From Deltaproteobacteria bacterium (GTDB lineage Bacteria > Desulfobacterota > Dissulfuribacteria > Dissulfuribacterales > QOAL01): DNA of 64,000 bases. The position numbers and the translations under genes were made by a program. The notes below the pieces were generated by a model. That model saw only the letters and a program-made list of their open reading frames with translations, ran no database searches and was not told where the DNA came from. This document shows, piece by piece, positions 37,609-61,362 of the stretch; position 1 is the first letter of the stretch, and each line of letters opens with the position of its first letter. The stretch spans positions 62,001-126,000 of the forward strand of contig JALSNW010000051.1 in NCBI GenBank assembly GCA_026986785.1. The letters are read 5' to 3'.

Positions 37609-37994
37609 TCGAAGAGTTAATCACTTGATGGTTCGTTTAGGCCAATGACTATCACCAAATCTTTTGGTGGCAGAACTCCAATATATCCCCTCCGGAGGTA
37701 GCCATCCCTATATGTTGCCATAGGGCAGCCATCTTTTGGCACTTGTAGGAAAATACATTCACGTTTTTTTACACACCCCCTGTTCGTATTGTAAAACCCC
37801 CTTTAACACCAGCGTTTTTTGCCTATTTTTGCATGGTTTTTTGGCATGCTATTAGCTACTTCATCAAATCTGTTTAATGGATTTTTTCAAAGCCTAAAGA
37901 CCTGTTTGGGGAAAAAATGGCTTCCGAACATATCCAGGTATGTCTGTTGCTCTTAATGATCTAAACAGACCGTCATCAACCAGGAGGAAGTGAT
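37609..37994. other. Intergenic region upstream of the FN3/malectin-like gene
   Basis: Carries two small hairpins, CACCAAA/TTTTGGTG (37653-37669) and CCCTAT/ATAGGG near 37707-37726, the direct repeat AGCCATC, and two ACCCCCT motifs 20 bases apart (about 37774 and 37794) ahead of a sigma-54 promoter. Further down, the leader contains the 7-bp stem GTCTGTT/AACAGAC. No known riboswitch consensus fits. Confidence 0.45.
37841..37857 (+). promoter_or_regulatory. Sigma-54 promoter of the FN3/malectin-like gene
   Basis: TTGGCATGCTATTAGCT: GG at 37843-37844 and GC at 37855-37856 give exact N10 spacing. It matches TGGCA at -24 and T-GC at -12. Predicted start near 37868 gives a 127-base leader. Confidence 0.65.
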
Positions 37995-39752
37995 ATGAAA
38001 ATCCGCTGCTTTCATAAAAAATATATAAAAATTAATGGATTGAGTGCGATGCTCCCAGTTGCAAGCGAAGGTTTAAAACTTTTGCCCTATAAAAAAAGTT
38101 TTAAATTGCCCTTAAATATTTTTTGTCTATTTGTGGCCTTCTGTTTTTTTGGGCCCCAGGTTATCATGGCCGCCAGTGTCACGTTGAGCTGGAATAGAAA
38201 TCAGGAGCCGGATATAGCTGGTTACAAGATCTTTTATGGCACAGCCTCGCATCAATACAGCCAATCCGAGACAATCAACGATAGTCGGCACAGCCCTCTG
38301 GAGATTTCCCATGTCATCTCCAATCTGGACGACGGCAAGACCTATTATTTTGCAGTAAAGGCCTTTGATTTGGCAGGTCAGACGAGTGATTTCTCTGATG
38401 AGATATCCATAACCATCCCTTCGTCTACAAGTGGTTCTGGAGGCGATGAAGGCTCAGGTGGTTCTGATGATTCTGGCTCTACGGGTGACAGCGGAGGAGA
38501 TGACGATACGGTTAGTGGCCCTATGGAGTTCAAGGTGAACTTCCAGCCAGCCAATGCCCCGATTCCCAGTGGTTTTGCTGCAGATTCGGGCCAGTGGTAC
38601 AGCTCCTCGACAGGTTACGGCTGGGTGGGCCAGAGACCCCAAGTCTATGATCTCAACAGCAGAAGATCAAAGGATCAGCAGCACGACACCCTGGCCAAGG
38701 TGAACAGCAGTATGAAGTGGGAGCTTGCCGTACCCGCAGGCGACTACGAGGTAACTGTCTGTATAGGCAGCCCTACGAACCAATATCTATTTCAGGGTGT
38801 TTATGTGGAAGGAAATAGGCTTTTTTATAACACAACGACATGGGCTGGAAAGTGGATGGAAAAGACTACAAAAGTACATGTCTCAGATGGCAAACTCACC
38901 CTGAGCTTCAAGAATATCCTAAGGTTCTTTGTTGCCCTCGATTATGTGATTGTCCGCAGTGAGGATACAGGCGTTTCCGTTCATCAAAATCAACCTCCAA
39001 TCCCTGTAATCTCCACGTCTACCAGAAGTGGCCAGGCACCTTTTGAAGTTCAGTTCAATGGTAGTGGTTCCTCTGATCCGGATGGTAGTATTGTCCTCTA
39101 TCATTGGGATTTTGGGGATGGTGAAACTCTCAATGGTGCGGTTACCAGCCATGTATTTTCGTCTCCAGGTTCTTATACCGTAAGGCTTACAGTAAAAGAC
39201 GACGATGGCCTGTCTCGTTCCAAGACTGTAACTATTACGGCTACTGGTTCTGATGATTCTGGCTCTACGGGTGACAGCGGAGGAGATGACGATACGGTTA
39301 GTGGCCCTATGGAGTTCAAGGTGAACTTCCAGCCAGCCAATGCCCCGATTCCCAGTGGTTTTGCTGCAGATTCGGGCCAGTGGTACAGCTCCTCGACAGG
39401 TTACGGCTGGGTGGGCCAGAGACCCCAAGTCTATGATCTCAACAGCAGAAGATCAAAGGATCAGCAGCACGACACCCTGGCCAAGGTGAACAGCAGTATG
39501 AAGTGGGAGCTTGCCGTACCCGCAGGCGACTACGAGGTGACCGTTTGTGTGGGGAGTGCCACAGCTCCTTATTTCTTCCAGGGTGTACAGGTTGAGGGAA
39601 AGAGCTTCTTCTCTGGGCTGACTACCTTCCCTGGTCATTGGGAAGAAAAGACAAGACAAGTCCATGTGTCCGATGGCAAGCTCACGCTTAAATTCTTTAC
39701 CATCTCCAGATCCTTCGTGGCCCTGGATTATGTGATCGTCAAGAAAAAGTAA
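37995..39752 (+). CDS. Secreted multidomain protein: FN3, malectin-like, PKD, malectin-like
   Basis: 585 residues. AGGAGGAAG precedes ATG 37995. A long basic N-terminal stretch leads to the hydrophobic export segment (about 38-58, ending VIMA). Next come a fibronectin type III domain (about 60-140), a Gly/Ser/Asp linker, a malectin-like beta-sandwich (about 175-310), a PKD domain (about 330-415: GSGSSDPDGSIVLYHWDFGDG), the same linker again, and a second malectin-like module to the end. The two linker-plus-module N-halves are encoded by identical DNA while their C-halves differ. All modules bind carbohydrate or protein outside the cell. No sorting signal was found at the C-terminus. Confidence 0.85.
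   Translation: MKIRCFHKKYIKINGLSAMLPVASEGLKLLPYKKSFKLPLNIFCLFVAFCFFGPQVIMAASVTLSWNRNQEPDIAGYKIFYGTASHQYSQSETINDSRHSPLEISHVISNLDDGKTYYFAVKAFDLAGQTSDFSDEISITIPSSTSGSGGDEGSGGSDDSGSTGDSGGDDDTVSGPMEFKVNFQPANAPIPSGFAADSGQWYSSSTGYGWVGQRPQVYDLNSRRSKDQQHDTLAKVNSSMKWELAVPAGDYEVTVCIGSPTNQYLFQGVYVEGNRLFYNTTTWAGKWMEKTTKVHVSDGKLTLSFKNILRFFVALDYVIVRSEDTGVSVHQNQPPIPVISTSTRSGQAPFEVQFNGSGSSDPDGSIVLYHWDFGDGETLNGAVTSHVFSSPGSYTVRLTVKDDDGLSRSKTVTITATGSDDSGSTGDSGGDDDTVSGPMEFKVNFQPANAPIPSGFAADSGQWYSSSTGYGWVGQRPQVYDLNSRRSKDQQHDTLAKVNSSMKWELAVPAGDYEVTVCVGSATAPYFFQGVQVEGKSFFSGLTTFPGHWEEKTRQVHVSDGKLTLKFFTISRSFVALDYVIVKKK
38459..38752 (+). repeat. 294-bp perfect direct repeat, copy 1
   Basis: Identical base for base to 39245-39538, offset 786. 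It encodes the acidic linker and the first half of the malectin-like module. Both edges are sharp: similarity drops immediately outside. Confidence 0.97.
39245..39538 (+). repeat. 294-bp perfect direct repeat, copy 2
   Basis: Second copy of the repeat starting at 38459. Synonymous positions are also identical, so homogenisation by gene conversion or duplication was recent. Confidence 0.97.
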
Positions 39753-39822: not shown

Positions 39823-40966
39823 TATTCAATATAATCCTGACCTTTGCCAAAGTGCCTTGTGTGTCTCCATCCCTTGCCTCTATCCCAAATGGCCTGCATA
39901 AGATGCATCACCTGGATGCCCATCTGCCAGAATGGGAACACGACTGCAATGGGGCCTATTCGATAAGGCTTAAAGACAAGGCTTGGAAATATCCATGCCA
40001 GCCAAGGGAAAAGGAGGAAGGGGGTCATCGTCTCCCAACTAAATGGGCAAAGCATGTGATTCAAGAGTGCAGATATGAATGCAAGCCAAAACACTGGTTT
40101 TGGCAATAGAGCCCAGATGACAGAAATGGCGAAAAGGGGTTTCCTCTTCAGTAGCGAGATGCATTCTATTGCTATTGCCATTCGACCTCTCAACCATCTG
40201 CTCCCTTGGACAACACCTGATTTGAGCGCAATAGGCTTTTCATCCAAGACCCAGATGCAGTCGTACCAGTGGATGGGTATGTTCTTTTCGCAGAGCCTGA
40301 TTTGGTAGTAGATGTCCTCTACAAGGCCCATGTCTTCTGTCCAAGGTGCCCTGTGAACCAATATGTCTTTCCTGAACAGCATACCTGTCCCGCACAGGTT
40401 GGCACTGAGTCCAAATACTGCACGTCCTCTTTGGATGACCCTATTTAAGAATGCATATATTACAGTGATCATCTTGGTTGTCATGGAGTGTCCTGGGTTG
40501 GAAGGCCGAACCTCCACCTGGACAACTTCTGGGCTCAATGCCAATACATGGGGCAGCAGGTGCCAGAAATTGGCCGACAGTACGTTGTCTGCATCCATCA
40601 CCATCAGATATCGCCAGTGCTGGTTTTTGTAGTGCTGAAGCGCAGCCGAGAGTGCCTTGGACTTGGTCGAGTTGGCACCCTTGTCGAAAATAAATGCCTC
40701 GAAGCCTGCTCTTTTACTATGTCAAGGGTGCGATCTGTACAATGGTCAGCAATCACCACCACCCTGGCAGGACAATCCTTCAGGGAAGAAAGGGTATGGC
40801 CTATAACCATTTCTTCATTATGGGCCGGTATGAGAAGGAGTATATCTGGGAGGTGGTTTCTGCGTCTCAACCTATTTGAGAAAAAAGGGGATGCGACGAG
40901 GAGTAGAAATATCGTGGCATCCCATATTAATAAGAGAGAGAAAAAAAGATAAAAGATGGCCTGCAT
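39822..40966 (-). pseudogene. Glycosyltransferase family 2, interrupted by a -1 frameshift
   Basis: Two reading frames together make one GT2 of about 380 residues. The first (from ATG 40966) has a membrane anchor and LPDILLLIPAHNEE, then loses frame after ADHCTDRTLDIVKEQ. The second continues FEAFIFDKGANSTKSKAL, MDADN (metal-binding DXD-like) and QGSRWLRGR, then ends in membrane helices. The break lies at about 40704-40708, where one base is missing in a GG run. The flanking protein reads perfectly, so this is either a very recent mutation or an assembly error. If intact it is a processive-type membrane GT2 for exopolysaccharide. Confidence 0.85.
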
Positions 40967-48428: not shown

Positions 48429-48444
48429 TGGCATGAATCCTGCT
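48429..48444 (+). promoter_or_regulatory. Sigma-54 promoter of the CAP-domain gene
   Basis: CTGGCATGAATCCTGCT: GG at 48430-48431, GC at 48442-48443, exact N10 spacing, matching -24 TGGCA and -12 TGC. Predicted transcription start near 48455, 36 bases before ATG 48491. Confidence 0.7.
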
Positions 48445-48490: not shown

Positions 48491-49462
48491 ATGAAGGGTC
48501 TTATCTCTACAATCGTATGTCTTTTGGCAATCTATTTGACGATGCCGGAATTGGGGGCCTTTGCTTCCTGTGCTGATGAAGGACCAGAAGCAAATGCCAC
48601 CATTCGGGAGGCCGAGGACTGGATTGTAAACTATATAAATGAACTCAGGACTGAGCCAGAATCGGCCCTTCATGAGCTTGGCTTGAATGCCACGCTGTCT
48701 CTACCAATTCATGGGGATATGATCTGTAATTGGTATGGGTGTTTTTATCAAGAGTTGGAGACATATCCCCTGGCCAGGTCTGCTATCCTGGATGGTTTTG
48801 CCTCAACCTGGGCAGATGAGATGGCTGAGGAGGGCTTTTTTTCCTATGAGGCCCCTGATGGATCATCTCTGGAGGATTTTATAAAGGAGACAGGTTATCC
48901 GTCATCCAACGGTGCCCAGATAATCTCGGCTGTTCTTATCAAGGACTACAAGAGTCCTTGCCAGGCAGTCAGGGTCATTATGCAAAATCTGCTCGAAAGT
49001 GGCATATCTGACAACAAGGCAACAGGCAATGCCTCATCCTTGATAGACTACCACTATGATGCTGTAGGAGTGGCCCTCAAGCCTGCCCTGTTTTCCATGG
49101 ACGACGGCACGATTGTTGGGGCCTACTATCTGGTGATATTGCTCGATAGGCCCTTGGAGATCTTTCGTTCGCGTATGGTGCATTGTGGCCACCTTTATTC
49201 TGATGTCAATAACGATGGGCTTTACGAAGAGGGAGAGGGGATAAAGGGGGCATTGTTTTATGATGACAACGGTGCTATCTTGGCCAGGTCATATAGTAAG
49301 GGCAGGTTCTGTCTGGAGCAGTCGGTGGAACAGTGGACCTGGCACATTGGAAACAGGTCTCTTCCTAGTGTAGATCTGCACGGGATCTCTACCTGGAGCA
49401 ATGGCGAGTTGAGGCAGGATATAGACTTTGACAGGCTTCATGGCAAGCTTGGTGATGAATGA
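48491..49462 (+). CDS. Secreted CAP (SCP/PR1)-domain protein
   Basis: 323 residues with a signal peptide (ending LGAFAS before CADEGPE). The CAP-like features are IVNYINELRTEPESALHEL, a helix AILDGFASTWADEMAEEGFF, ETGYPSSNGAQII, and a final strand VVGAYYLVILLD. A C-terminal extension (about 235-323) has a Ca-site-like DVNNDGLYEEGEG and could be a small beta domain. Bacterial CAP proteins are extracellular with mostly unknown activity. GGGGAG lies 5 bases before ATG. The first gene after a sigma-54 promoter, followed 28 bases later by a lipoprotein gene. Confidence 0.7.
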   Translation: MKGLISTIVCLLAIYLTMPELGAFASCADEGPEANATIREAEDWIVNYINELRTEPESALHELGLNATLSLPIHGDMICNWYGCFYQELETYPLARSAILDGFASTWADEMAEEGFFSYEAPDGSSLEDFIKETGYPSSNGAQIISAVLIKDYKSPCQAVRVIMQNLLESGISDNKATGNASSLIDYHYDAVGVALKPALFSMDDGTIVGAYYLVILLDRPLEIFRSRMVHCGHLYSDVNNDGLYEEGEGIKGALFYDDNGAILARSYSKGRFCLEQSVEQWTWHIGNRSLPSVDLHGISTWSNGELRQDIDFDRLHGKLGDE

Positions 49463-49490: not shown

Positions 49491-49982
49491 ATGAAAGAGA
49501 TATATCAGAGAGATCTACTTGGTAGCTATTTGATCAATGCAGTTTTGGGCAGTTCATGCAGGTATTGTTTTGCTGGTTTGTGTCTTCTGGTAGTAGCGTT
49601 ATTGTCTTCTTGTGCAGGTCTCAATCTGCATCCTGATCCCCAGTCGGATGTACGTAAGGCTGCCGAAAATTATTGGAGTGCCAGGGTTGCCGGGGATTGG
49701 GTTACATGCTATAAGTATGAAGAGGTTTCTAAACTTCAGGAAGAATCATTGTCCCAATATGTGCACCGTCAGGGTAGCCTCATCTATAAATCCGCCCTTG
49801 TAACAGGCGTTGAAATGAAAGATCCTGATCATGCATTGGTGCATGTTTCTTTGGAATATTGTTTACCGGCCTTTGGTACGAGTCATGCTTTCAAGACTGA
49901 TGTGAAGGATACATGGGTAAAAATTGATGGAAAATGGTATCATCATGTCGAAAAGAGATTGATGGACAAGATGAAGAGCTAA
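49491..49982 (+). CDS. Putative lipoprotein, NTF2-like fold
   Basis: 163 residues. The N-terminal extension of about 25 residues precedes the hydrophobic export segment and lipobox LLSSC. The mature part (VRKAAENYWSARVAGDWVTCYKYE ... WVKIDGKWYHHVEK, split here) has the helix-then-sheet pattern of small NTF2-like lipoproteins. Function unknown. It lies in the presumed sigma-54 operon with the CAP gene. A later start cannot be excluded, because no strong ribosome binding site precedes ATG 49491. Confidence 0.6.
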   Translation: MKEIYQRDLLGSYLINAVLGSSCRYCFAGLCLLVVALLSSCAGLNLHPDPQSDVRKAAENYWSARVAGDWVTCYKYEEVSKLQEESLSQYVHRQGSLIYKSALVTGVEMKDPDHALVHVSLEYCLPAFGTSHAFKTDVKDTWVKIDGKWYHHVEKRLMDKMKS

Positions 49983-50021: not shown

Positions 50022-50051
50022 TTGAGTTTAATGTTTCTTGAGTAATAAAAT
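50022..50051 (+). promoter_or_regulatory. Possible sigma-70 promoter of the 344-residue secreted protein
   Basis: TTGAGT (-35) and TAAAAT (-10) are separated by 18 bases, 32 bases before the start codon. A strong AGGAGGT ribosome site follows. Confidence 0.4.
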
Positions 50052-50083
50052 CAATACAAACAAACAAACAGGAGGTTTAAGAA

Positions 50084-51118
50084 ATGAAGAAGTTTACATC
50101 TTTGGGAGTAGCAATCTTTGCTGCATTGATGATGGTTGGTATTACCAGCCAGGCAAACGCCGTTACACTCGGCGTCTATGACAAGGGCCTTCTCGTGCCC
50201 ATCACCACCCATGGCGCACCTGGAATCGATACCGCTGTTGGTATCCTCTGTTCCCAGGATACAACTGTCTATTGGACTTTCTTCGATAAACAGTCCAATC
50301 CGATCGTTGACAGTGACTTCCCCTGTACAAAGAACGATCTCTATCATTTTTCTTTGAACAACGAGGCCCCTAATACAGAAGGAGTCGAGGGCTATCTGGT
50401 ATTTACCGCAAATGGCGGAATAAAGGCTGCTGACAAGACAGCTATCCTCAACCCAAACGACAACAAGAGCATTTCAGGAAATGCATTCCTCATCGATACC
50501 AATAGCGATGATGCCATCTTCCTGCCAGTCGTTCCCCTCTGTATTACTGATTATGCAGCTGGTACCGACCTTTCCGCTATGACAAACACCTCAGTTGTGA
50601 GCCTGCACTATGGTTTTACAAGGGGAGATAACTGCAATATTGATGTGCGCTACTGGCTCGATCCCCAGTACGGTGCATGCACAAACGTTATCCTCTGGAC
50701 CACCCAGTGCCTGAACCAGTACTGGCAGTGGGGCGGAGTAAATCCAGTGCCTGGAAACTGCTATTTCGATACGGATCCAAACAATCCTACCCCTTGGATC
50801 CTCAAGTGTCACCTGAACGTGTATGATGACGAAGAGCACAGGACCTCTGTGAGCATTCCTCTCCAGTGCGAGGTTACAAACTTCTTCCCATCAAATATCA
50901 CAGGTTGGCCAAACTATATAGATGGCTTCATCCGCATCCCCTCCACGGATCTGATGCCTAATGCTGGCGACGGTGCCTTTGGCTTCTCCTATGTGACAAG
51001 CACCACCTTCAAGGCTGCCCAGTCACTTCTTGCCAGCGAAAGCTGCGGACAGGTGAATTGTGGTGCCCATAGGGCTGCTGGAGGAAGCACCCCCAAACCC
51101 TGTGGATGTGGCCAGTAA
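50084..51118 (+). CDS. Abundant secreted protein of unknown family, Cys-containing
   Basis: 344 residues. The signal peptide ends in QANA before VTLGVYDKG. The mature protein is rich in Asn, Asp, Thr, Tyr and Trp, looks all-beta, and carries 13 cysteines, four of them clustered at the C-terminus (CGQVNC and KPCGCGQ). I recognise no family. Near-consensus AGGAGGTTT, an A-rich leader and a perfect terminator suggest high expression as a single-gene unit. It could be a surface layer, filament or adhesin subunit; that is inference. It lies inside the polysaccharide cluster, next to the CAP and lipoprotein genes. Confidence 0.8.
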   Translation: MKKFTSLGVAIFAALMMVGITSQANAVTLGVYDKGLLVPITTHGAPGIDTAVGILCSQDTTVYWTFFDKQSNPIVDSDFPCTKNDLYHFSLNNEAPNTEGVEGYLVFTANGGIKAADKTAILNPNDNKSISGNAFLIDTNSDDAIFLPVVPLCITDYAAGTDLSAMTNTSVVSLHYGFTRGDNCNIDVRYWLDPQYGACTNVILWTTQCLNQYWQWGGVNPVPGNCYFDTDPNNPTPWILKCHLNVYDDEEHRTSVSIPLQCEVTNFFPSNITGWPNYIDGFIRIPSTDLMPNAGDGAFGFSYVTSTTFKAAQSLLASESCGQVNCGAHRAAGGSTPKPCGCGQ

Positions 51119-51153
51119 TATCGGCTGACATAGAGCCACGATAGAGTAACCGA

Positions 51154-51187
51154 AGCGGCTGTCTTTTCCAGACAGCCGCTTTTTTTC
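51154..51187 (+). terminator. Rho-independent terminator after the secreted protein gene
   Basis: A 10-bp perfect GC-rich stem AGCGGCTGTC / GACAGCCGCT, a 7-base loop and seven or more T. It is one of the strongest terminators in the window. Confidence 0.92.
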
Positions 51188-51366: not shown

Positions 51367-52170
51367 ATGAACTATCTAAGGACACTTGCTGCAAATATCT
51401 TCAAGAACAGGTACTTGTTGCTGCTTTGGACGAAGAGAGAGATCAAGGCGCGTTATGCAGGGACAGCAGCAGGTGTTATATGGGCAACACTTGTGCCTCT
51501 TTGCACCATTGCCCTATACTACATATTTTTTTCCCTCGTGCTCAAGATAAAGATACCAGAGGTTGCTGGAAGCTCTGGTTATTTCTTCTACCTCCTGGCT
51601 GGATTAATACCCTGGATGTCCCTATCCGAGGGCTTGGGGCGCTCTGCATCCTGTCTGGTGGATTATGGTTTCCTTGTCCAGAAGATGGTATTCCCCATGG
51701 ATATCATCCCTGCTACAGTGGTCATCGTGTCCTTGGTACCTCAAGTGGTTGGCTTTTTCATATATGTTGCAATGTTGTCCCTTGGGGGGCTCGTGGAATG
51801 GTACAGGCTCCTATGGGTGCCTGTCATTTTCTTGTGCCAAGTGATGTTGATGCTGGGTATGGCCTATCTGCTATCTGCCCTTGGAGCAGTCTTTCGCGAT
51901 TCCATCCAGGCAGTTGGAATACTGCTTCAATTTTGGTTTTATCTCACTCCCATACTCTATCCCCTCAAGATGGTGCCAGAGTCCTTCAGGCCTTTCATTC
52001 TGTGGTCTAACCCACTAACCCCCTTGGTCATGGGCTACCAGTGGGCATTTCTTGGGATTGCCATGCCGGAATGGATGCCGGCAATGATGGTCTTGTGGAC
52101 TTTTCTTGCCCTGCTCATGGGCCCATGCCTTTTTTATATCGTTGCCCCAACCCTTGCAGACCAGGTATGA
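51367..52170 (+). CDS. wzm: O-antigen/polysaccharide ABC exporter permease
   Basis: 267 residues with six transmembrane helices of the ABC-2 type. LLLLWTKREIKARYAGTAAGVIW at the start of the domain (here read across two segments) and FWFYLTPILYPLKMVPE near the end are typical of Wzm/KpsM/RfbA. It forms the channel that carries undecaprenyl-linked glycan across the inner membrane. Its stop overlaps the start of the ATPase gene by 4 bases (ATGA). AAAAGGG lies just upstream of ATG 51367. Confidence 0.93.
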   Translation: MNYLRTLAANIFKNRYLLLLWTKREIKARYAGTAAGVIWATLVPLCTIALYYIFFSLVLKIKIPEVAGSSGYFFYLLAGLIPWMSLSEGLGRSASCLVDYGFLVQKMVFPMDIIPATVVIVSLVPQVVGFFIYVAMLSLGGLVEWYRLLWVPVIFLCQVMLMLGMAYLLSALGAVFRDSIQAVGILLQFWFYLTPILYPLKMVPESFRPFILWSNPLTPLVMGYQWAFLGIAMPEWMPAMMVLWTFLALLMGPCLFYIVAPTLADQV

Positions 52171-53405
52171 AGACCACCTTTGTACCAGAAGAATACCCTG
52201 TGGTATTAAGGGATGTCTCCAAGGTCTACCGGCTCTATGCCAAGCCAGTTGACCGGATGAAGGAACTCCTTCTCAGGAGGCCCTTTCACAGGGAATTCTG
52301 GGCCCTAAAAGATATAGGCTTCACACTCAAGAGGTCGGAGACCTTCGGTGTAATAGGGGAAAATGGGGCTGGGAAGAGTACCCTTTTGAAGATAATTGCT
52401 GGAACCATCCTCCCCACTTCTGGCTCTGTCGAGGTAAAGGGTAAGGTTTCGGCCCTTTTGGAGCTTGGTGCAGCATTCCATCCCGATCTCTCTGGCAGGG
52501 AAAACGTATTCATGCAGGCGGCCATCCTTGGGCTTTCCCAAAGGGAGATAGAGGAGCGATACAAGGACATAGTAGAATTTTCTGAACTGGATGAGGCTAC
52601 CATGGAGCGTCCTGTCAAGACCTATTCCTCTGGCATGTTCGTGCGTCTTGGTTTTGCCATTGCCACGTGCGTAAGCCCTGAAGTCCTGGTTGTGGACGAG
52701 GCCCTTTCCGTGGGGGATATACATTTCCAGAAAAAGAGCCTTGATAGGATCATGGGGTTTAGAAAGGCAGGGAAGACCATCCTGTTTTGCTCGCACAACA
52801 TGTATCAGGTGAGAAGTCTCTGTCAGCGGGCCCTTTGGCTCAAGGATGGCCAGATGCAGGCCTTTGGTCCCACAGAAGACGTAGTAGCAGAATATGAGGC
52901 CTATCAGAGAAAGAAGGAAAAGGAAGCGGGAGAGGAAGAGAGGTCAATATCCATAGTAGAGCCAGAGGCAAAGCCAGCAACTCAAGCCCCTCCAGTCAAG
53001 ATAATCGACATATATATCGTTGATTCCAAGGGCAATCGTTGCAACAGGCTGATTTCCCATGAGGATTTTATCATAGTCATAGAGGTGCAGGTACTGGAGC
53101 CAGATAGGCCTTTTCATCTCGGTGCAGTTATCCAGAGAGACGATGGCATCAATGTGTTCGTCACCACGACCAAACAGCAGGGGTATGATCCTGTTGTCGG
53201 GCGTGAAGTAGTAACAGCACATCTGTCTCTACCACAGCTGGCCCTTCTTTCAGGTGATTATTCCCTATTTATCTATGTGTTGGACGATCACGGGATACAG
53301 GTTCTCGATATGGCAGAAGGGGTTTATCCCTTTTCTATCAGAGCGGCTACTTCAGAGATGGGGATCGTGGCATTGAAACACAAATGGCACATAAAGACCC
53401 TGTAG
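52167..53405 (+). CDS. wzt: O-antigen/polysaccharide ABC exporter ATPase with C-terminal glycan-binding domain
   Basis: 412 residues from ATG 52167. The nucleotide-binding domain has Walker A GENGAGKST (64-72), signature YSSGMFVRLGFAIA and Walker B VLVVDEALSVGD. A charged linker (about 255-275) leads to a C-terminal Wzt-type beta-sandwich (about 285-412). In O9a/O12-type systems this domain binds the modified non-reducing end of the polymer. That matches the presence of methyltransferase genes nearby which could cap the chain. The longer upstream frame is a shadow of wzm. Confidence 0.94.
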   Translation: MKTTFVPEEYPVVLRDVSKVYRLYAKPVDRMKELLLRRPFHREFWALKDIGFTLKRSETFGVIGENGAGKSTLLKIIAGTILPTSGSVEVKGKVSALLELGAAFHPDLSGRENVFMQAAILGLSQREIEERYKDIVEFSELDEATMERPVKTYSSGMFVRLGFAIATCVSPEVLVVDEALSVGDIHFQKKSLDRIMGFRKAGKTILFCSHNMYQVRSLCQRALWLKDGQMQAFGPTEDVVAEYEAYQRKKEKEAGEEERSISIVEPEAKPATQAPPVKIIDIYIVDSKGNRCNRLISHEDFIIVIEVQVLEPDRPFHLGAVIQRDDGINVFVTTTKQQGYDPVVGREVVTAHLSLPQLALLSGDYSLFIYVLDDHGIQVLDMAEGVYPFSIRAATSEMGIVALKHKWHIKTL

Positions 53406-56271: not shown

Positions 56272-57444
56272 ATGCTATCTTTTGTGAGGAATGTCTGTCT
56301 TCTTTGGCTATGTTTTGTCCCGTTCGTCTTGGTTGCCGGGTGTACGGGTGTGGCAACCAAGGCCAGGGAGACAAAGGTCCAGAACGAGGGGCCTGTATAT
56401 CCGGCACATCATGTGGAATTCGATGCAGGCAGGGACCCTGAGAATATCGTTGCTGCGGATTTTAACAATGACGGTATCTTGGATGTGGCAATCAGTTCCC
56501 ATGGGGATAGCTGTGTAAAGATATTCCTTGGAAAAGGGCATCGTGGCTTCCATCTGGCCACAGTCATCCCCAAGGCTGTTGTGGGTTTCCATCCCGACTG
56601 TCTTGCAGCTACGGACTGGGACAAGGACGGCTATATAGACCTGGTCCTTGCGGCCGAAGGCCGCAGTAAGGTGATTTGGCTTCGAAACAAGGGAGGAAAC
56701 GGCTTTGAAAAGGCTGGAGCTGTACCTGTGAAGTATCCGCCAAAGGGCATAGCCCTTTCCGATCTTGACGGAGACGGAAACATGGATATCGTCCTGGGGC
56801 CTTACAGCCGCGGCAATGTGATGGTGTTATGGGGCAAGGCCCAGCCGCGTTTTGAATTCCAGGCATCCGAGATACCGGCAGAAAGGTTTGCATCTTCTGT
56901 CTCCATCGCAGATTGGAATAGTGATGGCCGCCCGGATGTGTTCTGGACAGAGACAGAAAAATACAACGTCAAGGTTGCTTTGAATCAGGGTAACAGACGG
57001 TTTCATACAAAGATATTGTTTCACCGTTCCCCCATGATTTTGGAGCTGCCGAGAAGTGTTGTGACTGCGGATGTAGACGGAGATGGTTGCGTGGATGCCT
57101 TGTCTCCTCTTGAGATTGGGAAGGCAGCAATAATACTACACGGTGACTGTAAAGGAAATGTCAAAGATCTGGAAACCATCAAGGCACCTGCCTGGGGCTA
57201 TAGAGGTATAGGGGCCATTGCTGCTTCTCCTGGGCATCCGGCCTACATCGCCCTTGGAGAAAAATTGAGGATCTTTATAGGCGTCAGAAACAAGGCGGGT
57301 AAATGGGATCTCCATGAATATAAGGGAGGCAAAGTGCCTGAGGCCTTCGTCTTCAAAGATATGGACAAGGATGGCAACATGGATGTGCTATTTGTTGATT
57401 CGGCTGGGGATACGGCCAGCCTCTACTACGGTCCATTGACATAA
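56272..57444 (+). CDS. FG-GAP/VCBS-repeat lipoprotein
   Basis: 390 residues. A lipobox VAGC ends the signal sequence. The rest is a beta-propeller of FG-GAP/VCBS repeats with recurring calcium loops: DFNNDGILDVAI, DWDKDGYIDLVL, DLDGDGNMDIVL, DWNSDGRPDVFW, DVDGDGCVDAL, DMDKDGNMDVLF. Six such loops fit a seven-bladed propeller with one degenerate blade. Probably a surface or periplasmic scaffold binding glycan or protein. It lies between the methyltransferase and a parvulin gene 16 bases downstream. Confidence 0.88.
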   Translation: MLSFVRNVCLLWLCFVPFVLVAGCTGVATKARETKVQNEGPVYPAHHVEFDAGRDPENIVAADFNNDGILDVAISSHGDSCVKIFLGKGHRGFHLATVIPKAVVGFHPDCLAATDWDKDGYIDLVLAAEGRSKVIWLRNKGGNGFEKAGAVPVKYPPKGIALSDLDGDGNMDIVLGPYSRGNVMVLWGKAQPRFEFQASEIPAERFASSVSIADWNSDGRPDVFWTETEKYNVKVALNQGNRRFHTKILFHRSPMILELPRSVVTADVDGDGCVDALSPLEIGKAAIILHGDCKGNVKDLETIKAPAWGYRGIGAIAASPGHPAYIALGEKLRIFIGVRNKAGKWDLHEYKGGKVPEAFVFKDMDKDGNMDVLFVDSAGDTASLYYGPLT

Positions 57445-57460: not shown

Positions 57461-58339
57461 ATGGGCAATTGCGTTAGATATTTCATCGTCATAGTAACCT
57501 TGGCCAGTTTTCTTGTCATACCAGGAACTTCGTTTTCAGCAGGTGATCTTAAAATAAGTAAAGCCGAGGCCAGCCATGTAGTGGCCGAGGTCCATGGTAA
57601 GAAGATAACAGTACATGACATCAGGGAATTTGCCACAAACTCCCCAGCCTTTTATGCCTATCTCGAACTCCCTGGGGGGCCAAACAAGATCTTGAATGAC
57701 ATGATTCTCAGGGAGTTGCTCTACCTGGAGGGACATGACATGAAGATCCCTGAAAATCCTGAAAAGCCAAAGGAGGTATACGTAAGGAAGGTATTGAATA
57801 GACTGTTTCCCAAAGAGCCAAAATTTACCGAGGACGAACTGAGAAGATTTTACGACGAACATCCCGAACTCTTCAGTACGCCCAAGTTCATTCGTGTATC
57901 TGTTGTCCGTGTATATGTCAAAAGAGACGGCGAGGCCAAGGCCTTGGAGAAGATACAGCAGGCCCAGGAGCTTTTGAAGGCTGGACAAGCCTTCGAAGAT
58001 GTGGCTGCGAGGTTTTCTGAGGACCCCTTGAGCAGAGACAGGAAGGGGGACCTTGGCTTTTTGCCAGACAATGAAATAAAGCCCCCAAGTCTCAGGAAGC
58101 TTCTCGAATCCATGAAAAAGGGCCAGCTCAGCGATGTCCAGAGGATAGACGGTTATTTTGCAATATTCAAGGTCACGGATATAAGGGGGCCTGTAGTGGA
58201 GCCCTTTAACAAGAAATTCGTTGAGGAAAAGGCCAAGGATTACCTGAAGGAAAAGGCCATAAATGATATAAGATCAAGACTGGCAAAGAAGTGGGGAGTG
58301 AAATATATAGATCCTGCTTTTGCACCAGATACCGAATAG
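57461..58339 (+). CDS. Periplasmic parvulin-type peptidyl-prolyl isomerase
   Basis: 292 residues. A signal peptide ends near GTSFSA. A SurA_N-like helical part (VVAEVHGKKITVHDIREF ... RELLYLEG) is followed by a rotamase domain with FSTPKFIRVSVVRVYV, DVAARFSEDPLSRDRKGDLGF and QRIDGYFAIFKVTDI. It helps fold secreted or outer-membrane proteins. AAAGGAGG lies about 11 bases before the ATG, and the gene is the last of the methyltransferase-lipoprotein-parvulin operon, which ends at a strong terminator. Confidence 0.9.
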   Translation: MGNCVRYFIVIVTLASFLVIPGTSFSAGDLKISKAEASHVVAEVHGKKITVHDIREFATNSPAFYAYLELPGGPNKILNDMILRELLYLEGHDMKIPENPEKPKEVYVRKVLNRLFPKEPKFTEDELRRFYDEHPELFSTPKFIRVSVVRVYVKRDGEAKALEKIQQAQELLKAGQAFEDVAARFSEDPLSRDRKGDLGFLPDNEIKPPSLRKLLESMKKGQLSDVQRIDGYFAIFKVTDIRGPVVEPFNKKFVEEKAKDYLKEKAINDIRSRLAKKWGVKYIDPAFAPDTE

Positions 58340-58426: not shown

Positions 58427-61312
58427 TTATTGGGAGAATTCCACCGTGTAGTCTTCCACTTCTCCAAATAGGAATGTACCACATGCCTTTGGAGGTACTA
58501 TTCTGGACATGGCTACACGCATCCTTGTAGATCCTGTGGCATTACTTGCCACGGTAAAGCCACCAGAAAGGGCTGTATTTTTCATCCCGGAAAATACCAG
58601 CTCTCCTGGGTCAGAGAAATCCCCGTCCTTGTTGTAATCTATCCATACAATCCAGTATTCAGGATACGCCGTAGCTGCAAAACCTGGAGTCAATATCACG
58701 GATACAGTCTGGCCAGGTGTTAACAATACGGTCTTACTGAGAAAATCACTGTATGGCGATGGGCCAGATTCACTTGAGAAGTTTCCTATCTGGACCTTGC
58801 CTATCCACTCAGCCGCCTGGCTGTTTCCCTGTGATGTGCAGTAGCTAACCACCTTTTCGGTTACATGGATATAGGAGGTCTTGGTCTTACTGTCTGAACC
58901 CACGCTGTTGGAGACGCTGAGAGTGACTGGGTAATCTCCAGGACTGTTATATGTTATCGTTGGGTTTTCCTGAGTGCTGGATGAGGGGCTACCTCCCTGA
59001 AATGTCCATGACCAAGAAGTCGGATTGTTGCTTGACTGGTCAATGAAATGTACCTGACTACCCGTCTGGACATAGGTATGGTCTGCTGAAAAGTCTGCTA
59101 CTGGGGCCATTGGTTCTGGAGGTGGCCCAAATGTGACGGTGTAGTCTTCCACTTCTCCATACTTGAAAGGGCCACAGGCAGGGGGATAGGCCTTGTATTG
59201 CATGGATACCCTCATGCGTGTAGATCCCGAGGCAGAAGATGGGACAGTAAACGATCCTGACACAGATGCTGAGGCAGAACCGGAGAATACATTTTCTCCT
59301 GGGTCAGAGAAGTCCCCGTCCTTGTTGTAGTCGATCCAGACCTTCCAGTACTCAGGATAAGAATAACTGGCAAAACCTGGAGTCAGGCGAAGTGATACTG
59401 CCTGGCCTGGGGTAAGGGATATGTTTTTCAAGGTATAGTCCGAGTAATGAGATTGGTTAGACGTATTGGTGAAGCTACCGACCTGTACCTTGCTTATCCA
59501 CTCGTACTGCTGGCTGTCACCCTGGGAAGAGCAATAATCAGTTGATGAATCTCCACCATCATCACCGCCTCCACTGATATTATCCACGAAAGTTACGGTG
59601 TAGTCTTCCACTTCTCCATATCTGAAAGAGCCACAGGCAGGGGGATAGGCCTTGTATTGCATGGATACCCTCATGCGTGTAGATCCCGAGGCAGAGGCAC
59701 TAACAACAAAAGCCCCCAGTTTTGCAGTAGAGGCATAGCCGTAGAATACATTTTCTCCTGGGTCAGAGAAGTCCCCGTCCTTGTTGTAGTCGATCCAGAC
59801 CTTCCAGTACTCATTGTATGCCTTACCAGAAAATCCTGGCGTGAGATTTAGGGTAACACTTGAACCTATTGGAAGATCGATGTTTTTCGAGGTGAAATCC
59901 GAATATTTGGAGGCACCCGAACTGTTTGAAAAGCTGCCTACCTGTACCTTGCTTATCCACTCGTACTGCTGGCTATCACCCTGGGATGTGCAGTAGCTTG
60001 TATCGCCAGAACCGTCGTCTCCACCACCTCCAGAGAATACGGACTGCCTGTAGCTTGCCACAGTAGCCATTGTCTGACGAATGGTCTCGGCATTGTCTGC
60101 CTCGCCGGCTACACCTATGGCATAACCCTGGTATGTGATATCAGGGTTGGAAAAGTAAGGTATGGTTGGCGAGTTATAGCTCATGATGGTTGCAAATATA
60201 CCTGGCTTGTCATATCCATAGGAATAATCAAACAGCCCTGGCATAAGTTTACCATTGCTGCCATAAGCATGGGCCTTGTCATGCTGGCAGCCCAGATTGT
60301 GACCTATCTCATGGGCCAGGGTGTAGTCGTCACAATAGTAACCAGAGGCCGAGCCTGTCTGGATGACAGAAAAGCCGTATCCCTGGGTACCTGATGGATT
60401 GTTTACAGCTTGAAGGAGCCAGGCAAGGCCACAGTATTGATTGTCCTCGGTGAAGGCCCTTACGAGGCATACTAGATCCGCTCCATATTCGTCTCGCCAT
60501 GTTGGTACCAGGGAGAACACACCACTACTAGAGGTGAGGGCATTTAGTGCTGAATCGCTCAGAACGTTGTCTGGGTAATTGACCTCCTTTTCCCCAACGA
60601 GATTGAGTTTGAGATTGATATTGCTATTGATGTATGCCTGATTGGCAAGTTCGACCAAGGAGTTCAAAAAGGTATCCAGGGCGTCCCCAGGGTGTTTTTG
60701 GGCCACTTCAGGGGTATAGAGTAGCAATAGATCTATCGTAGTCTGCCCCTCTCCCTCTGGTACGGCATAGGAAAGGGGTGGGTTTTCCTGATCCCCTACC
60801 TCTTCGACCGGTGCCGGCAGGGCGTCGTTCATATTCTTCAAAGGCATCAGTCCCTCAAGGTCTGTGATCTTGTGGAGATTGTTCGAACCCAGGGATGTAA
60901 CTTGATATATCTGGCCATTGAAGATGATGCGTCCGGCCATGATAGAATTTTTTATGAACAAGAAGGCACTTCCGTTGCCATATTCTGGTTCTACTGTGCC
61001 TATCCAGACCAACCCGTTCTTGGTTATCCTGATTTTTTGCGTTTTGATACCGATGTAGGTACTATCGTCCAACTGGGCCATTACCTCGGTACCAGGAGTG
61101 GAATTTTTCAGGAGGGCGGCATTGGCAGTGACAATAAATGAATTGTTACTGGCAAAATTTGGCAGAGTCCCTGATGGAACAGCTGCGGATAGCGCCACGG
61201 GTGCCTTTGAAAAAAGTGCCTCTGCACTGCTGACACCAGAGACAAACAAGGAAAATAAAAGGACAAAACTCAAAAACAGACCTGAAAGATACGTTCTATA
61301 GACTCTTTTCAT
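58427..61312 (-). CDS. Secreted metzincin metalloprotease with three GEVED modules and a PKD domain
   Basis: 961 residues. Signal peptide (about 1-30), a propeptide-like region, then a zinc protease domain with HEIGHNLGCQHD at 334-345 and Met-turn IMSYNS near 375. This is a reprolysin-like metzincin. Then GEVED module 1 (about 441-580), module 2 (595-735), PKD (about 740-830) and module 3 (835-961). Each GEVED ends in FGEVEDYTV or YGEVEDYTV and holds WIDYNKDGDFSDPGE. Modules 1 and 2 are encoded by nearly identical DNA. AGGAGGTAG lies before the ATG. An extracellular protease, possibly processing surface proteins. Confidence 0.92.
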   Translation of the reverse strand: MKRVYRTYLSGLFLSFVLLFSLFVSGVSSAEALFSKAPVALSAAVPSGTLPNFASNNSFIVTANAALLKNSTPGTEVMAQLDDSTYIGIKTQKIRITKNGLVWIGTVEPEYGNGSAFLFIKNSIMAGRIIFNGQIYQVTSLGSNNLHKITDLEGLMPLKNMNDALPAPVEEVGDQENPPLSYAVPEGEGQTTIDLLLLYTPEVAQKHPGDALDTFLNSLVELANQAYINSNINLKLNLVGEKEVNYPDNVLSDSALNALTSSSGVFSLVPTWRDEYGADLVCLVRAFTEDNQYCGLAWLLQAVNNPSGTQGYGFSVIQTGSASGYYCDDYTLAHEIGHNLGCQHDKAHAYGSNGKLMPGLFDYSYGYDKPGIFATIMSYNSPTIPYFSNPDITYQGYAIGVAGEADNAETIRQTMATVASYRQSVFSGGGGDDGSGDTSYCTSQGDSQQYEWISKVQVGSFSNSSGASKYSDFTSKNIDLPIGSSVTLNLTPGFSGKAYNEYWKVWIDYNKDGDFSDPGENVFYGYASTAKLGAFVVSASASGSTRMRVSMQYKAYPPACGSFRYGEVEDYTVTFVDNISGGGDDGGDSSTDYCSSQGDSQQYEWISKVQVGSFTNTSNQSHYSDYTLKNISLTPGQAVSLRLTPGFASYSYPEYWKVWIDYNKDGDFSDPGENVFSGSASASVSGSFTVPSSASGSTRMRVSMQYKAYPPACGPFKYGEVEDYTVTFGPPPEPMAPVADFSADHTYVQTGSQVHFIDQSSNNPTSWSWTFQGGSPSSSTQENPTITYNSPGDYPVTLSVSNSVGSDSKTKTSYIHVTEKVVSYCTSQGNSQAAEWIGKVQIGNFSSESGPSPYSDFLSKTVLLTPGQTVSVILTPGFAATAYPEYWIVWIDYNKDGDFSDPGELVFSGMKNTALSGGFTVASNATGSTRMRVAMSRIVPPKACGTFLFGEVEDYTVEFSQ
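59284..59354 (-). repeat. GEVED module DNA repeat, copy 1
   Basis: 71 bases identical to 59743-59813, offset 459 (153 codons). The surrounding parts of the two modules (about 59138-59520 and 59597-59990) are also highly similar, including a shared tract around 59640-59695. This marks a fairly recent tandem module duplication. Confidence 0.9.
59743..59813 (-). repeat. GEVED module DNA repeat, copy 2
   Basis: Second copy of the tract at 59284-59354. The third module (58440-58850) is much more diverged. Confidence 0.9.
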
Positions 61313-61346
61313 AGTGATTCTACCTCCTATACTCTCCCCATGCCCA

Positions 61347-61362
61347 GCAATTGTAATGCCAA
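61347..61362 (-). promoter_or_regulatory. Sigma-54 promoter of the metalloprotease gene
   Basis: TTGGCATTACAATTGC on the minus strand: GG at 61360-61359, GC at 61348-61347, exact N10 spacing. It matches TGGCAC-N5-TTGC at all but one position. Predicted start near 61335, followed by AGGAGGTAG and ATG 61312. Confidence 0.82.

Follow-up and report, generated by a model that had tools for sequence, protein, structure and literature searches.

What kind of protein is encoded at positions 50084 to 51118 (+ strand), next to the polysaccharide exporter genes of this window (the whole stretch of 64,000 nucleotides analyzed)? The gene specifies a secreted, predicted beta-rich protein of 344 residues, here called the target, whose family is undescribed. 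A sequence-only reading had singled it out as a candidate surface component. That the target is a so far undescribed exported component linked to the polysaccharide cluster was well supported by the conserved neighborhood, by co-occurrence, and by expression signals, and the larger finding is a conserved unit of a lipoprotein and a secreted protein, often located in polysaccharide clusters, in which the secreted families are interchangeable. As to location, fold, and function, we infer, with about an even chance of being right, that the target is exported and nonenzymatic and gives structure to a surface or matrix layer built on polysaccharide, being highly translated and under sigma-54 control. 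To our knowledge, few proteins of the matrix or coat have been characterized in these lineages of Desulfobacterota. Their habitats lie close to minerals and sulfur, and one paper describes another clade of the same order as living with methane-oxidizing archaea (PMC10553843).

Expression signals and transcript unit

The near-consensus Shine-Dalgarno sequence and perfect terminator reported for the gene at the outset were both found, as AGGAGGT (50070 to 50076, +) and as an intrinsic hairpin of 13 pairs followed by a T-run (51152 to 51182, +), and the strength of both was conserved in 10/10 copies of the module. At least 5 of the 7 bases of AGGAGGT preceded the target in all 10 copies, compared with 59/254 other genes, a count in which the preference of the gene caller for starts with a Shine-Dalgarno sequence applies equally to all genes. 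A hairpin terminator with a score of at least 28 followed the target in 10/10 module copies versus 8/254 other genes of the loci, with L051 and L054 left out at contig ends and paralogs outside the module uncounted. No terminator was seen after the paralogs L046, L047 109-966, L049, and L053 or after the first of the two tandem target genes in G002.

The gene had also been credited with its own promoter and with standing as a single-gene unit, neither of which was supported. A sigma-70-like promoter at 50022 to 50051 was 1 of 7 found, while shuffled sequences yielded 6.6 (sd 2.4), and the gap before the target held no consistent promoter site in its relatives; the promoter was therefore rejected as a chance-level match. 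The target gene is separated by 101 nt from the gene of its partner lipoprotein (49491 to 49982, +), and since this gap contains no terminator, the target is more likely to be the last gene of a three-gene operon, CAP-lipoprotein-target. The claim of strong expression was favored by the conserved strength of the Shine-Dalgarno sequence and terminator but not by codon usage: the target ranked an unremarkable 8/45 among the window ORFs in codon adaptation, by an index that barely separates ribosomal genes, and the argument from codon usage was set aside as uninformative.

The presumed operon begins with a secreted CAP-domain protein (48491 to 49462, +; PF00188, E 3.1e-5, over the cut-off), and 46 nt 5' of its gene lies a sigma-54 (-24/-12) promoter-like site, TGGCATGAATCCTGCT (48429 to 48444, +). 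When the 120 bp before each gene were scanned and compared with randomly chosen stretches from that locus, sigma-54-like sites (p below 0.05) were found before 15/19 CAP genes (Fisher 1e-14), with their position kept, compared with 1/30 lipoprotein-like, 0/11 target, 2/17 GDAL (see below), and 0/8 FG-GAP genes. The scan omitted the CAP gene of L050 (contig edge) and 7/18 target-type genes for which another profile scored higher (L045, L046, L047 109-966, L048, L053, L055, and L056). RpoN was detected in 43/46 genomes of the order, including G000, and the genome of the window has it; the CAP gene of G001 has a sigma-54-like site, yet that genome gave no RpoN match. Sigma-54 control of the CAP/lipoprotein pair, as originally proposed, was thus supported.

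The protein and its family

The N-terminus of the target reads by eye, with no predictor, as a Sec-type signal peptide of residues 1 to 26 (50084 to 50161, +), with A-x-A at residues 24 to 26 (QANA) before V27 (VT); it was kept in alignment A1. The mature protein is acidic (34 kDa, pI 4.4) and carries all 13 cysteines, four of which (C321, C326, C340, and C342) fall within the last 24 residues, in a Pro/Gly-rich tail (51044 to 51115, +) ending in PKPCGCGQ. Reading frame, signal peptide, and cysteine count agreed with the first description of the gene.

That description had recognized no family, and the target matched no known housekeeping family in Pfam (0 families at E up to 10), NCBIfam (no model), or the PDB (no sequence match, and nothing significant with profiles). 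Profile matches to the GH27 C-terminal domain (E 0.06 to 0.28) and to multicopper oxidase (E 0.33 to 1.3) were rejected as being at chance level. Pfam detected no FN3 or Ig-like domain in the target, and the 17 members gave a single V-set match at E 0.16. An internal duplication suspected by eye was likewise discarded, the profiles of the N- and C-terminal halves scoring not above shuffles. Single-protein pattern searches of viral contigs gave no target relatives, and in open PMC papers, searched with terms of our own choosing, no published description was found.

Target homologs were identified in 12/46 genomes of the order (by inference, Dissulfuribacterales), with one copy in the 2.59-Mb genome of the window. 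Of 395 genomes sampled across the phylum, 6 matched the target, 5 of them in the same order. Outside the order, relatives occurred in one of about 378 sampled phylum genomes, G068, with two remote relatives whose similarity spans most of the protein (hhalign probabilities of 97.4 and 98.2). Four paralogs (G023 second copy, G031 C68, G035 C11, and G041 first copy) have no adjoining lipoprotein gene. At L013 1289-1620 (G017), pieces of a target homolog are spread over at least two frames, and one of the matches contains a stop; they probably represent a decayed gene. The invariant residues of the family are few and have a structural appearance in the alignment, and no active site is visible in the target sequence.

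It is unlikely that the target builds an ordered assembly of protein, such as an S-layer, sheath, or filament, for which the polysaccharide would be merely an anchor. A subunit of that kind would fit the conserved strong translation and termination signals, the acidic mature protein, the tandem duplicates in G002, and the AlphaFold2 model, which was mostly strands but, built from two sequences only (window and L021), was unusable at pLDDT 34.3. Against this, no assembly family was matched: Pfam found no SLH domain in the target (S-layer types lacking SLH remain compatible), no camelysin domain of the TasA/camelysin fiber type in the target or members, and no pilin domain in the target, whose signal, as read by eye, is class I with A-x-A cleavage rather than that of a type IV prepilin. 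In addition, the target occurs in just 12/46 genomes, and complete members vary from 260 to 395 residues with large loop insertions.

Gene neighborhood and the interchangeable secreted proteins

The partner lipoprotein has a lipobox, LSSC, read by eye, and gave no Pfam match over the cut-off. Its model from two sequences (pLDDT 66.8) is consistent with an NTF2/cystatin-like fold: the best VIA match (Z 7.2, rmsd 2.3, 68 residues) was of that type, at a score below the trusted level of the tool, and Foldseek against the PDB gave a best E of 9e-3, with none under 0.001. The lipoprotein gene lies directly 5' of the target in 12/12 target genomes, with a gap of 719 nt in G033. Strong lipoprotein matches (E below 1e-48) occurred in the same 12/46 genomes and in no others of the order, while 8 further genomes gave weak matches only; because the profile was built from those 12 genomes, the informative part of this result is the lack of a strong match in the other 34.

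The exporter genes were also as described initially. A Wzm-type ABC-2 polysaccharide exporter permease (51367 to 52170, +; PF01061) is followed by a Wzt-type ATPase with a C-terminal glycan-binding domain (52167 to 53405, +; PF00005, PF14524; start set by eye, 52071 in the ORF list). Farther along lie an FG-GAP repeat lipoprotein (56272 to 57444, +; PF13517), with relatives in 10/46 genomes, all among the 12 having the target, and a periplasmic PpiC-type prolyl isomerase (57461 to 58339, +; PF13145/PF00639). CAP relatives were found in 21/46 genomes of the order. A count of homologs and of their CAP/lipoprotein adjacency had been suggested as a check; families throughout the order retain the arrangement CAP-lipoprotein-target. 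In G023 (Dissulfurimicrobium) and G031, the lipoprotein-target pair occurs without CAP or exporter, and its neighbors are a sigma-54 activator and a PilS-like kinase (the kinase by Pfam in G023, by eye in G031); the G023 pair sits outside any polysaccharide cluster.

In many loci, the target is directly 5' of Wzm/Wzt, and a Sec signal by itself guarantees periplasmic delivery only, as would suit a periplasmic or outer membrane accessory of polysaccharide modification or export that forms no surface structure. We regard such a role as quite improbable: the terminator after the target in 10/10 copies implies that it does not share one transcript with the exporter, the G023 pair has been retained away from any exporter, and an accessory would not require expression as high as the signals suggest.

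Several other genes were noted in these loci. A protein of 170 to 210 residues with one N-terminal membrane helix recurs near CAP (L064-L069, L043, L044, and L047); none was noticed in the window. An M12B reprolysin-like metalloprotease with three GEVED domains and one PKD domain (58427 to 61312, -) has a sigma-54-like site, TGGCATTACAATTGCT (61346 to 61361), 33 nt 5' of its gene. A secreted FN3/PKD protein (37995 to 39749, +) also has a sigma-54-like site upstream (37842 to 37857); relatives of this protein are found next to the target cluster of both G009 and G011, and it may therefore share the regulon of the target. A membrane glycosyltransferase at 39825 to 40966 (-) is apparently split into 39825 to 40604 and 40607 to 40966 by a frameshift-like change.

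Where a genome matched the lipoprotein only weakly, the lipoprotein-like gene often precedes one for a different secreted protein. One such family, for which the name GDAL was coined in this analysis (no published name was found in open PMC papers), has the motif GDALxxPxY and occurs in 9/46 genomes of the order, two of which (G018 and G034) also carry the target unit, and in 7 genomes outside the order among the 395 sampled. Within the order, a lipoprotein-like gene adjoins GDAL in 8/9 genomes (absent in G036), most of these loci having been found via the lipoprotein. Outside the order, where the GDAL profile was the sole criterion, it adjoins GDAL, before or after, in 7/7 fetched loci (one per genome, two of them sharing a genus; G333 C3 was not fetched). 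The arrangement in G249 is CAP, ORF, lipoprotein, GDAL, Wzm, Wzt, which is that of the window with GDAL replacing the target; the G249 CAP gene was matched by the CAP profile and not by Pfam at E 0.001. In L067 5632-6658 (G029) and L071 5966-6986 (G019), the slot after the lipoprotein-like gene is filled by a third kind of secreted protein, of 155 residues, and a subtilase-like protein precedes the lipoprotein-like gene.

By local hhalign with signal peptides removed, target and GDAL scored 34.9 versus a shuffle maximum of 22.0 (n = 100), and the three control families reached at most 16.1. The probability was 28% here, and local alignment of the two families gave only 28 to 51% in all. The wider profile A2 scored 32.2 against GDAL, versus 20.6 for shuffles and 17.0 for controls, at a probability of 16%. 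Global alignment without signal peptides was not above shuffles. The best local match was the C-terminal YDDEE/ELN/GFIR region, at the corresponding place in both. From these profiles, the two families are likely, but unproven, remote homologs. GDAL resembles the target in being secreted, in adjoining the same lipoprotein type, in its G249 slot before Wzm/Wzt, and in remote profile similarity, whereas it is mostly longer (430 to 660 residues) and its local hhalign match is weak.

Likely role and comparison with known systems

A coat or matrix structural protein best fits the data because the target belongs to a sigma-54 unit and is a well-translated, separately terminated exported product without a visible active site, and also because it is accompanied by the lipoprotein, the CAP protein, the periplasmic PpiC isomerase, and the glycan exporter. 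Under this explanation, RpoN and an enhancer-binding regulator would jointly switch on CAP, lipoprotein, and target. The target would pass the inner membrane via Sec, its folding perhaps assisted by the PpiC isomerase of the cluster, and the lipoprotein would hold it or hand it on at the outer membrane; no outer membrane export route was identified for it. The target would finally associate with the Wzm/Wzt-exported glycan, giving the coat or matrix its structure. Several points speak against this explanation: codon usage does not mark the target as abundant, four paralogs lack an adjoining lipoprotein gene, the G023 pair lies away from a polysaccharide cluster, and the similarity to GDAL is weak.

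At least two cysteines within the last 25 residues were found in 7/17 aligned members, 2 of the 17 being truncated by contig ends. Subunits could be stabilized or cross-linked by the core cysteines, which are capable of forming disulfides, and by the flexible CxC tail that some members have. That the target is instead an adhesin or a mineral- or sulfur-binding surface protein, with polysulfide, sulfur, or metal bound by its CxC tail, is improbable: the tails would suit an order including sulfur disproportionators, for which one paper discusses contact with solid sulfur (PMC8780430), but a Cys tail is absent from both copies in Dissulfurimicrobium (4 and 2 cysteines in total) and one member has no cysteine at all.

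The structural reading can be extended, tentatively and with a fairly low probability, to the CAP/lipoprotein/secreted-protein unit as a whole. It would then be an undescribed, sigma-54-controlled surface system of Desulfobacterota in which the lipoprotein delivers interchangeable subunits (the target, GDAL, and perhaps a third, short kind) into exported polysaccharide, and in which, among sulfur-cycling members, Cys tails serve to cross-link the coat or to interact with sulfur or metal. The lipoprotein with its secreted protein provides a two-gene signature for finding major surface proteins from sequence alone, and one carrier, Dissulfurimicrobium hydrothermale, is cultured.

As a coat or matrix protein, the target would by analogy act like RbmA or PepA, being a member of neither family by the tests made. 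The RbmA gene sits among polysaccharide genes (rbm/vps clusters), and the PEP-CTERM/EpsH system links exported proteins to exopolysaccharide. RbmA of Vibrio cholerae is described as a secreted protein of the biofilm matrix that binds Vibrio polysaccharide (PMC5605196). The target shares with it the character of a secreted protein working with polysaccharide but has no FN3 Pfam match, and its partners are CAP, lipoprotein, and ABC exporter. PepA of Aquincola is reported to be an RpoN-dependent PEP-CTERM protein that raises bound polymer and flocs (PMC9850573); on that description it resembles the target in being exported, sigma-54-controlled, and linked to exopolysaccharide. The target differs from PepA and from the PEP-CTERM/EpsH system in its C-terminus, PKPCGCGQ, from which the PEP-CTERM tail (PEP motif, membrane helix, and basic end) is absent, with no NCBIfam match, and no exosortase was noticed by eye among the window ORFs. 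The Xap locus of Geobacter offers a further likeness in description. Its cargo consists of multiheme cytochromes, and there, as proposed here, an extracellular polysaccharide network is the scaffold that carries secreted proteins (PMC10553843).
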